A DNA stretch of 30,923 bases, from positions 1-30,923 of IMG/VR virus record IMGVR_UViG_3300010370_000150. The stretch is one strand, 5' to 3'. Within the stretch, counting starts at the first letter, position 1. Every line of letters starts with the position of its first letter. Shown here one piece after another: positions 11,501 through 14,800 of the stretch. Source of the DNA: a virus. Under the pieces are notes generated by a model. It was not told the DNA's origin. It made no database searches and was given only the letters and a program-made list of their open reading frames with translations. The translations under genes and the position numbers were made by a program.

Positions 11501-13075
11501 TTAAATTACCACATTATAACTTAATTGGGAATATAGTACATAAAAATTATCTGGATTTGAAGAGTTTATCAAAGGAACATCTGTCAATGATCCAATTGAT
11601 GATGTTGAAGTTTCTTGTGGTTGAACTGAATTTGCAGTTTTAATTATTGTTAGTTCAGGTTTTGGTGGAGGTAATTGTCCAATTTTTTGTGTGTCTTGAG
11701 GTGGAACTGATATTTGTGCAAGAGGTGTAGTTGGTTTTTCGGGTTGAGATTGAGATTGAAGTTGACTAATACTAATTGAGTCAGTAACTCCCACACTCGA
11801 CATATTAGGTTGTTGAAGAGGAGTCGCAGTTTGATTATTGATTAAGTTTTGTGTATTACTAGGAGTTGTGGATGCAGTTGCAGGTGCTATAGAAGTTGCT
11901 GCAGGTGAAGGTAATTCTGAAGGAGTTCCAGTTGCAGGTGCTATAGAAGTTGCTGCAGGTGAAGGTAATTCTGAAGGAGTTCCAGAAGACTCACGTTTTA
12001 TCTTTTCTAATTCTTCTCGTTTTTTTCTTAATAGTTCTGGATCCGCCCCGGTTAGATTACTTCCTAGAAGTTCAGCAATTTGATCTAAACTAAAAACTGT
12101 ACCAGATGCAATTCGAATCCCTCTAAAAATTCCTCCACCTGGCACAAATGTCAATAAAGATAAGATCGTATCAATATTCTCACCATTTAAAAAGTTCATC
12201 GCTCCTGATGCACCAGTTATCATTTTACCAATAAGACTTAAAAATCCACCACCAGAACTAGGTGGACTTGGTGATCTTGGAGAATTTGTTGGAGCATTGG
12301 GTAAACCTGGTATTGCATTTCGAATACCACCTAAAAGATTACCAAATAATATTGATGCTGCAACTAATGGTTTTACAACGAGTAATCTTGTTAGTCCAGA
12401 TGCTATACCTTTAATCGTATTTGTGATAAGAGAAAATCCCTTACGAATTGCAAATAATCCACCAAAAGCAATTCCAATATTCTTAAGAATATTTAATTTA
12501 ACCTGATTGAATAAATTTGTATTATTATCTTCAGATGCCTGTATTCCTTTTACAACTTGATTTGTTAACCATCCACCAAACAAAAATCCAAGAGCAGTTC
12601 CAATTCCACCAAAAATATTTTGGACTTTTGGTACTAATTTTTGAACTGGTTCTAAAATAGAGTTTTGTATTTGTTGTTCTAATTTGTCTTCTTTTCCAAT
12701 TCTAATTTTTCTTTCAGTAAGTCTTCTTTGATTTTCTTGCTCAGATTCAATACGATTTCTTTCTTCTGCGCCATCTTGTTGTAAAAGTAATGCAATTGTA
12801 GAAAGACCAGTTCCCAGTTTATTGATTCCAAGTCTTAAATCTTGAATATTGGAATTGAATCCAAGTAATGCTTGCTCTTGACCCTGAATCGATCTTAAAT
12901 TCTGTAATTCCTCTTGGGATCTTTTATTTTCAATGGTTGCAAGTTCACTTTTAATTAAAGATGAATTGACAATGGATTTTTTTAATAAAACTTCTCTAAC
13001 TTCCTTAGATAAAACAGATCCCGTAATTGGATCAACTCCTGATCTTCCAACTTTTTCGGGATCTATTTCAGCCAT
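11501..13075 (-). CDS. Tape-measure-like tail protein with coiled coil and hydrophobic segments
   Basis: 524 aa, ATG at 13075 overlapping the small upstream ORF by 8 nt and ending 1 nt before the next gene. Residues 20-145 are charged and helical (QSEQ-type coiled coil, for example RIESEQENQRRLTERKIRI). From about 150 to 260 come hydrophobic helices (GTALGFLFGGWL, NIGIAFGGLFAI, VVKPLVAASILFGNLLGGI). A Pro/Ser/Thr-rich C-terminal part contains two identical 18-residue units (GTPSELPSPAATSIAPAT). A gene right after a tail assembly chaperone pair, with helical and membrane-active character, is where tape measures sit in many tailed phages; T4 gp29 is of similar length (about 590 aa). No sequence motif proves this, so it could also be another hub component. 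Confidence 0.65.
   Translation of the reverse strand: MAEIDPEKVGRSGVDPITGSVLSKEVREVLLKKSIVNSSLIKSELATIENKRSQEELQNLRSIQGQEQALLGFNSNIQDLRLGINKLGTGLSTIALLLQQDGAEERNRIESEQENQRRLTERKIRIGKEDKLEQQIQNSILEPVQKLVPKVQNIFGGIGTALGFLFGGWLTNQVVKGIQASEDNNTNLFNQVKLNILKNIGIAFGGLFAIRKGFSLITNTIKGIASGLTRLLVVKPLVAASILFGNLLGGIRNAIPGLPNAPTNSPRSPSPPSSGGGFLSLIGKMITGASGAMNFLNGENIDTILSLLTFVPGGGIFRGIRIASGTVFSLDQIAELLGSNLTGADPELLRKKREELEKIKRESSGTPSELPSPAATSIAPATGTPSELPSPAATSIAPATASTTPSNTQNLINNQTATPLQQPNMSSVGVTDSISISQLQSQSQPEKPTTPLAQISVPPQDTQKIGQLPPPKPELTIIKTANSVQPQETSTSSIGSLTDVPLINSSNPDNFYVLYSQLSYNVVI
11877..11984 (-). repeat. Perfect tandem duplication, 2 x 54 bp, in frame
   Basis: Positions 11877-11930 and 11931-11984 are identical over all 54 bases. 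The unit is divisible by three and encodes 18 residues (GTPSELPSPAATSIAPAT) twice in the tape-measure-like protein. Perfect identity points to a recent slippage or unequal exchange event, or to expansion tolerated in a flexible linker. Confidence 0.95.
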
Positions 13076-13238
13076 TGTTGTTTCTTAACTCTTCTTCTTC
13101 GATTCTTTGTTTAATCAACGCAATAATAATCTCTCTTTCCCATGGGATCAGGTTGCCAATATCCTCTAACGAATATTTATAATCATTTATTAAGGAAAAA
13201 TTTGTCTTATAGTATGATTCAAGATTTTCATGAATCAT
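13068..13238 (-). CDS. Short hub/tail chaperone ORF, 56 aa, possibly expressed as a gp26 frameshift fusion
   Basis: The ORF from ATG 13238 to TGA at 13068 encodes MIHENLESYYKTNFSLINDY, then KYSLEDIGNLIPWEREIIIA and a charged helix (LIKQRIEEEELRNNNG). It starts three bases after the gp26 stop and lies in the -1 frame relative to gp26. The frame is open upstream through that stop, back to a slippery heptamer at 13247-13253. A short helical protein with a 'PWER' motif between a chaperone gene and the tape-measure position resembles the T part of lambda-type G/GT tail assembly chaperones. It could also be made on its own from the ATG, though no strong ribosome binding site precedes it. I know no T4 gene name that clearly applies. 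Confidence 0.75.
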   Translation of the reverse strand: MIHENLESYYKTNFSLINDYKYSLEDIGNLIPWEREIIIALIKQRIEEEELRNNNG

Positions 13239-13240
13239 AC

Positions 13241-13960
13241 TCAACCGAAAAAACTTTGAAGTCCCTCTAGTTTAACTTCACTTTCAACCTTAGTCTTTGG
13301 ATTTTTTACATTAAAAGTATGTAAAAGTTTTGGCATTGTATTAAAGAATTTATCTATTTCTTTAAACTTTTGAGGACTTAGTTCTTCAATAAAGTCTTCA
13401 AGTTCTTTTCTTGTGCAATCTGATGCTGCCCAAGATTCTTTTTCACTATAAACTTGCTCAATACAGGAGATAATTAAATCAAATGTTTCATTTATACTTA
13501 GATCCCGATTTTGAATGAAATTTGCCTTAACGAAATCATTTACAGACGGATACTTCATTCTTAATGTAAGATTGTCATCTAACTTGATATCTCTGGAATG
13601 ATTCTCATCAATTTGAACTTGAATTTCATCAATATTAATATTGACCTTAACTTTGGTTTCTTCGTCGTCTGGGCAAGTACATAAAAATTCAATACTTTCC
13701 CCTACAGATTTTCCTCGAATATTTAAGAACAGATATTCTATATCAAACGTTGCTAATTGATCAATTTTGATTCCACGAGTTAAAATACAGTTATTGATTA
13801 CAGTTTTAACTGCATTTGCAATTTGTTCTGGATCCTCACTTTCTTGTGCAATGATGAGAATTTTCTCTTCTTTTACAAGAAATGGTCTATATTTAATTTC
13901 TTTTTTAAGTGAAGGAATAACTAAGGTATACTGTGGAGTTACAACTCTAGGTAATGGCAT
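13241..13960 (-). CDS. 26: Baseplate hub assembly protein gp26
   Basis: 239 aa, ATG at 13960. The N-terminus MPLPRVVTPQYTLVIPSLKK, followed by EIKYRPFLVKEEKILIIA, is the signature of gp26 of T4-like phages (the T4 baseplate protein family that acts in hub assembly). The body is mixed alpha/beta with a helical C-terminal half (ELEDFIEELSPQKFKEIDKF) and ends LEGLQSFFG. The last codons, CAA AGT TTT TTC GGT TGA, contain the slippery heptamer T TTT TTC, so some ribosomes may shift to -1 and continue into the 56-aa ORF. It is the second gene of the hub operon, 24 nt after the tail-tube-like gene, and possibly has its own AATAAATA late-type motif at 13986-13993. Confidence 0.9.
   Translation of the reverse strand: MPLPRVVTPQYTLVIPSLKKEIKYRPFLVKEEKILIIAQESEDPEQIANAVKTVINNCILTRGIKIDQLATFDIEYLFLNIRGKSVGESIEFLCTCPDDEETKVKVNINIDEIQVQIDENHSRDIKLDDNLTLRMKYPSVNDFVKANFIQNRDLSINETFDLIISCIEQVYSEKESWAASDCTRKELEDFIEELSPQKFKEIDKFFNTMPKLLHTFNVKNPKTKVESEVKLEGLQSFFG
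13247..13253 (-). promoter_or_regulatory. Candidate -1 ribosomal frameshift site T TTT TTC at the gp26 end
   Basis: In the gp26 frame the codons are AGT TTT TTC GGT TGA. The heptamer T TTT TTC fits the X XXY YYZ rule: both Phe codons re-pair as TTT after a -1 slip. The stop follows one codon later. In the -1 frame translation continues as FFRLSMIHENL into the 56-aa ORF. The sequence pattern is seen directly; frameshifting itself is inferred. Confidence 0.6.
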
Positions 13961-13984: not shown

Positions 13985-14800
13985 TTATTTATTAGATGAT
14001 TTACCATATAAGTATTCATATAGGGGTTGACCACTCGGAACCATTTCAACTCCATTCGAAGGAATTGATCCAGGGGATCTAGGTATTAATAATTGTTGAG
14101 GTTGTCTAGGTTGTGTAGGTTGAGGTTGAGGTTGATTGAAATCTTTATTATTGTCTTCATTTCGAATAATATCAAGACTTAATGACTTTCCGATTACATA
14201 ACGATCAATCTTAAATGTCACAGACATTTTTAATACATCGGATTGAGCATATGAAACTGGAATTGATGCAATATTATACGGATAAAGTCCTATGAATGTA
14301 TATTCAATTTCTTTATTGTAATCACGATCAAATTTTACAATTTTTGTTTTATTTGATTTATAATATTTGGGATATTGCATTCTAATGAAATATCCATCAT
14401 CAACGTTACTATTAATCGGAGGATTATTACCTTCAATTGGATTAGAAGCACCACTTGAAATAAATTCCATCCAGTGTTCAAGGAACTTTAAACTTTTATA
14501 ATTTTTATCAACATAAAAATCAAAACTAATATCTTGAAATTGTCTTCTGTGTGCAAAAGTTTCTGTAATTCCAATATAATTACCAGACACATCAACAGTT
14601 GATAATTGAGTTGTAGGTAAGATGCCATTATAACATAAAAGTCCAGCATCTTCAGAAATGAATCTTGAAGTAATTCCTTTACTACCTAGATATGACACTA
14701 ATTCGGTTGGCAATCCACCAAATTTAACTTCATAGTGTGTGGTCTGAGCAAGATTTGTGAATAGAGGTTTAATATCTGATATTCTACGTGGTTTTGCCAC
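13985..14800 (-). CDS. Tail-tube-fold baseplate protein, probably gp54-like tube initiator
   Basis: 271 aa, ATG at 14800, first gene of the hub operon. Residues 20-200 have the layout of myovirus tail-tube proteins: HYEVKFGGLPTELVSYL, then ITSRFISEDAGLLCYNGILP, ETFAHRRQFQDISFDFYVD, and KSLKFLEHWMEFISSG, followed by strands ending near KMSVTFKID. The tail-tube fold is shared by gp19, gp48 and gp54; since gp48 is recognisable at 15877-16869 and this gene belongs to the hub operon, gp54 (tail tube initiator) is the best guess. The C-terminal 60 residues are Pro/Gln-rich (QPQPQPTQPRQPQQ) and probably disordered. A CTAAATA motif lies 33 nt upstream. Confidence 0.7.
   Translation of the reverse strand: MAKPRRISDIKPLFTNLAQTTHYEVKFGGLPTELVSYLGSKGITSRFISEDAGLLCYNGILPTTQLSTVDVSGNYIGITETFAHRRQFQDISFDFYVDKNYKSLKFLEHWMEFISSGASNPIEGNNPPINSNVDDGYFIRMQYPKYYKSNKTKIVKFDRDYNKEIEYTFIGLYPYNIASIPVSYAQSDVLKMSVTFKIDRYVIGKSLSLDIIRNEDNNKDFNQPQPQPTQPRQPQQLLIPRSPGSIPSNGVEMVPSGQPLYEYLYGKSSNK
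13986..13993 (-). promoter_or_regulatory. Weak late-promoter-like motif AATAAATA before gp26
   Basis: On the minus strand AATAAATA overlaps the stop region of the tail-tube-like gene, about 25 nt before the gp26 ATG. It differs by one base from the T4 late consensus TATAAATA. In such AT-rich DNA a chance match is quite possible. Confidence 0.3.

Follow-up and report, generated by a model that had tools for sequence, protein, structure and literature searches.

A predicted programmed -1 frameshift cassette in gene 26 of a T4-like virus and its relation to T4 genes 26 and 51

It is highly likely that gene 26 of the T4-like, cyanophage-type virus analysed here harbours a cassette for programmed -1 ribosomal frameshifting, which would yield two tail assembly chaperones, one short and one long, in the manner of lambda G/GT. 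The window (i.e., the whole stretch of DNA that was analysed) comprised 30,923 nucleotides, positions 1 to 30,923 of IMG/VR record IMGVR_UViG_3300010370_000150. The observations consisted of signals in the sequence, their conservation among related loci, covariation in a structure and homology to gp51 of T4. Judged by these sequence comparisons, the frameshift site is real and widely conserved, and slippage very probably takes place in this virus. The lambda tail assembly chaperones G and GT were reportedly described by Levin, Hendrix and Casjens in 1993 and by Xu, Hendrix and Duda in 2004. The features of the locus were as follows:

13985-14800, minus strand: upstream neighbour, tail tube protein (phrog_45, E = 2.7e-34; PF23849)
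13241-13960, minus strand: gp26 homologue, the 0-frame product and predicted short tail assembly chaperone, 239 aa, ending GLQSFFG and stop (PF12322, E = 3.4e-70; phrog_150, E = 3.7e-76)
13262-13267, minus strand: Shine-Dalgarno-like GAGGGA, putative 5' stimulator, 8 nt upstream of the heptamer (predicted anti-Shine-Dalgarno duplex energy, 146 representatives)
13247-13253, minus strand: slippery heptamer T TTT TTC (T TTT TTN retained in 326 of 327 loci)
13211-13241, minus strand: downstream hairpin (-14.0 kcal/mol, z = -4.3; compensatory changes; above the synonymous-codon null)
13068-13247, minus strand: -1 frame extension, a gp51-type 'PWER' domain, predicted C-terminal part of a 297-aa fusion (phrog_634, E = 6.3e-21)
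11501-13075, minus strand: next gene, 524 aa, placed where a tape-measure or tail-hub protein would be expected (unmatched in PHROGs and Pfam)

The last codons of gp26 read AGT TTT TTC GGT TGA on the minus strand, and T TTT TTC fitted the X XXY YYZ pattern of slippery heptamers, correctly phased with the gp26 frame, as an earlier note on this DNA had stated. The same note placed the 'PWER' ORF in the -1 frame, open from the slip and overlapping the next start; this was confirmed, the -1 frame being without a stop codon from 13247 down to 13068-13070, and the extension overlapping the ATG of the 524-aa gene by 8 nt. After a slip the reading would be RLSMIHENLESYYK...RNNNG, adding 59 residues for a predicted fusion of 297 aa, with the gp26-PWER peptide SFFRLSMIHENLESYYK; a free protein from the second ORF would begin MIHENL. 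As in lambda G/GT, therefore, the second ORF was in the -1 frame and open through the junction. With regard to a G/GT-type gene order, a tail tube gene was confirmed upstream; the downstream 524-aa gene was without a family match. A tape-measure-like gene had been claimed at this point; a gene did adjoin and overlap the extension, but the 524-aa ORF matched none of the PHROGs or Pfam profiles and can only be called 'tape-measure-like'. In phiN3, a gene near the cassette matched tape measure profiles. The gene directly after the cassette varied greatly in size and label (compared in the window, L094, L095, S-BM3 and S-SCSM1), from 524 aa in the window to more than 1000 aa in S-PM2 and S-BM3, and was labelled 'endolysin', 'chitinase' or hypothetical in other genomes.

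The earlier note had proposed an alignment of gp26 3' ends as a check on whether the heptamer and the -1 relation were conserved, and both were. The same heptamer and frame relation occurred in 79 of 79 close relatives (viral contigs in which the 3' end was complete). T TTT TTN stood in phase in 326 of the 327 loci that carried both gp26 and the extension, the sole exception being VAP7 (Ackermannviridae); K352, likewise without the heptamer, stood outside the 327 because its second part fell below profile detection. In 325 of the 326 loci having the heptamer, the -1 frame ran uninterrupted from there to the end of the domain. Elsewhere in gp26, in-phase X XXY YYZ heptamers occupied 0.46% of codon positions. 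The wider set with T TTT TTC or T TTT TTT plus a -1 extension included cyanophages, Methylophilales phage Melnitz-3, Sinorhizobium phiN3, Pseudomonas Astolliot, Vibrio KVP40 and D479, Stenotrophomonas Moby, Aeromonas Asswx_1 and Rhizobium LG08; with KVP40 gp26 as query, only two loci were found.

Codons at the site were compared across 146 representatives (<85% identity), and changes were counted by parsimony on a tree of 145 of these (S-SCSM1 omitted), thereby allowing for shared ancestry. The codon preceding the heptamer took eight forms, encoding seven amino acids, but its final base was T in all 146 representatives; at least 46 changes were counted at this codon, every one of which left the final T intact. 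The first heptamer codon was TTT in all 146 (background 70%), while the second was TTC, TTT, TTA or TTG (Phe or Leu) and slippery in every case. On the tree, the second codon changed at least 11 times, and heptamer position 1 and the first codon not at all. A control Phe-Phe pair approximately 25 codons upstream, present in 129 representatives, had undergone at least 36 and at least 17 changes, against 0 for the first heptamer codon in the same 129. Since the second codon swapped between Phe and Leu yet remained slippery, it was slipperiness that was kept and not the 0-frame residue. In one marine clade (L222-L264) T TTT TTA replaced T TTT TTC, which turned the 0-frame residue into Leu and left the site slippery. 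With the heptamer in 326 of 327 loci against a background of 0.46%, and with no changes to the first codon or the preceding T, conservation was far beyond chance, and chance was rejected as the origin of the heptamer.

The junction contains a homopolymer run of six T, and the fusion might be attributed to RNA polymerase slippage at this run, rather than to ribosomal frameshifting. However, six T is short for transcriptional slippage, the run was not lengthened in most relatives, and the second codon varied at its last base; slippage by the ribosome, moreover, fits the phase as well as the Shine-Dalgarno-like element and the hairpin. Transcriptional slippage was therefore rejected as the main explanation, and its probability is considered very low.

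In most representatives, a GAGGGA-type element was situated 8-11 nt upstream of the heptamer. Its mean duplex energy across the 146 representatives was approximately -7.1 kcal/mol, compared with -1.9 elsewhere in gp26. Synonymous recoding, using pooled codon usage from the same loci for the null, gave -5.67 +/- 0.27, so the observed pairing (-7.15) was stronger than expected. The Shine-Dalgarno-like element is a predicted stimulator flanking the heptamer. On the other side, a downstream stem-loop, which had been suggested as a further check, was found. In the window it had an 11-bp stem, AGTATGATTCA (13241-13231) / TGAATCATACT (13221-13211), and a 9-nt loop, beginning after a spacer of 5 nt from the heptamer (-14.0 kcal/mol, z = -4.3). 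Among 145 representatives the stability of the region exceeded that of synonymous recodings, again based on pooled codon usage from the same loci (mean z = -2.0; control region, z = -0.15). In a clade of 43, picked from protein sequence alone, 9.72 of the 11 pairs formed where 6.16 +/- 0.25 were expected from the synonymous null, and the arms showed compensatory changes (GCTCA/TGAGT, GCGCA/TGCGT, GCACA/TGTGT and ATTCA/TGAAT). S-PM2 and S-N03 had different hairpins in the same place. In some of the representatives the hairpin was weak or missing, which counts against a frameshift, and an Rfam search at the site gave chance-level matches only.

In the bacterial dnaX cassette for -1 frameshifting, an internal Shine-Dalgarno, a slippery heptamer and a hairpin occur in the same order as here and with similar spacing. 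The heptamer is A AAA AAG in dnaX but T TTT TTC here, and slippage in dnaX yields the shorter product, whereas here it would yield the longer.

A different account of the second ORF is that it represents a separate small gene (gp51), translated through termination-reinitiation at an ATG after the gp26 stop, the heptamer being incidental. In the window a start did lie directly after the stop (TGAGTATG), an ATG fell within the first codons in 94 of 145 representatives, TAATG or TGATG overlaps were seen in KVP40, Moby and VAP7, and public records, which label the second ORF 'baseplate hub assembly catalyst', assume that it has its own translation. A possible start codon was correctly placed in 109 of the 145 representatives (the window has TTG and ATG), but 36 lacked any ATG, GTG or TTG close to where the ORF begins. 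In the window, and in the clade sharing its 11-bp hairpin, the ATG was buried in the 5' arm, and the sole Shine-Dalgarno-like element lay approximately 24 nt upstream of this ATG, too distant for initiation but suited to frameshift stimulation. A separate gene would also explain neither the conserved heptamer nor the homology between T4 gp51 and the fusion. For these reasons, independent initiation was rejected as the main explanation and is thought very unlikely; a mixed outcome, with some free gp51 produced by reinitiation alongside the fusion, could occur.

The gp26+PWER fusion was homologous to T4 gp51 from end to end. BLASTP aligned T4 gp51 with the fusion across the junction (E = 6e-7, a value from a single comparison that applies to this one pair only). 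The fusion matched positions 5-278 of phrog_150 in a single stretch, its extension also matching phrog_634, the label of which is 'baseplate hub assembly catalyst', i.e., gp51; T4 gp51 matched phrog_150 (3-248) and PF12322, and T4 gp26 and gp51 were paralogues. In T4, gene 51 is separate and divergent from gene 26, and gene 26 has no slippery site, whereas here a single gene is combined with a predicted frameshift. The T4 arrangement, with the long form encoded by its own gene, was not seen in the window or its Kyanoviridae relatives, where the domain was a -1 extension of gene 26. T4 gp26 and the other T4-type gp26 sequences retaining both Phe had TTC TTT after GAG or GAA, which is non-slippery. 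Slippery codons were therefore kept in genomes whose domain continues gp26 in the -1 frame, and lost in those that encode the domain elsewhere. Together, the comparisons of heptamer, frame and stem-loop and the homology to gp51 support the proposal of the earlier note that a programmed -1 frameshift joins gp26 to the 56-aa ORF; the Shine-Dalgarno-like element, the gp51 identity and the disappearance of the slippery site from T4-type phages were absent from that note.

By sequence, gp26 belonged to a different protein family from lambda G/GT, although its modelled fold showed a weak similarity to a chaperone of HK97: a Foldseek search with the AlphaFold model of gp26 (pLDDT 87.7) gave the tail assembly chaperone 2OB9 the top probability (0.82), but not a significant E value (0.74). 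The long form was modelled through a T4-type gp51 from a viral contig, standing in for the window fusion. The junction fell within a helix of this model and was followed by three added helices; the model had no significant match in the PDB.

There were exceptions to the common pattern, which count against the proposed frameshift. S-SCSM1 (NC_070962, 1977-2020) kept the heptamer but had approximately 11 extra nt after the stop, with the gp51-type domain in the +1 frame; the exact sequence of this insertion occurred in none of the viral contigs searched. A -2 or +1 shift, independent initiation at an ATG close by, or an error in the sequence could each explain this. Among Ackermannviridae, the -1 relation was kept without a canonical heptamer. 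A MPWHLD/APWQ-type domain was found in the -1 frame behind gp26 (L348, L349 and L350, i.e., Kuttervirus and Taipeivirus, after 1998; L089 and L093); it was unannotated in Marshall and Menlow, and in Kuttervirus it had no early start codon. Another recoding signal, or reinitiation, is possibly responsible for its expression. The gp51-type extension was itself unannotated, or was started at an internal ATG with loss of its N-terminal part, in Asswx_1, S-BM3, ACG-2014b, S-PRM1, Melnitz-3 and D479. In cyanophages, what is annotated as 'gp51' or 'baseplate hub assembly catalyst' most likely forms the end of a frameshift product rather than a free protein. This would correct a widespread annotation, the small gp51 of cyanophages being missing or cut down in many records.

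Vladimirov, Gautam and Davidson (2022, Virology 566:9) are cited, in the relevant passages of PMC10885494 and PMC12846349, both for the assignment of T4-like chaperone genes and for polyT frameshift signals within them. Going by those passages, this arrangement has already been reported for T4-like phages, of which the earlier note did not know. The general kind of frameshift is for this reason already known, and the present locus adds one case; possible additions to that work are the Shine-Dalgarno-like element, the hairpin with its covariation and the figures for codon conservation. So far as the T4-like gp26/gp51 chaperones are treated there, they belong to the same family as the present pair (PF12322, phrog_150), with a short and a long form in both.

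We infer slippage, its rate, the stoichiometry of its products and their chaperone function along the following lines. The internal GAGGGA would pair with 16S rRNA, and the 11-bp hairpin, 5 nt past the heptamer, would hold the ribosome on T TTT TTC, where two Phe-tRNAs would re-pair one base back. A minority of ribosomes would then continue through the gp51-type domain. The products would be a major short gp26 (239 aa) and a minor long gp26-gp51 fusion (297 aa), which, by analogy with lambda gpG/gpGT, would represent short and long tail assembly chaperones. The extra domain would give the long form a distinct task, probably the delivery of tail tube or baseplate components to the tape measure. 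In T4-type phages this pair would come from the two paralogous genes 26 and 51.

In a review of T4, gp26 and gp51 are hub assembly chaperones; gp51 is essential and absent from the particle, and its function is given as not known (PMC3004832). It seems reasonably probable that an ancestral cassette of three parts (Shine-Dalgarno-like element, T TTT TTN and hairpin), which provides both tail chaperones from one gene, is common to T4-like phages from several families, and that the T4 branch swapped it for a duplication into genes 26 and 51. In that case, the 'catalytic' behaviour in low amounts that has long been attributed to gp51 would belong to the minor, long chaperone.
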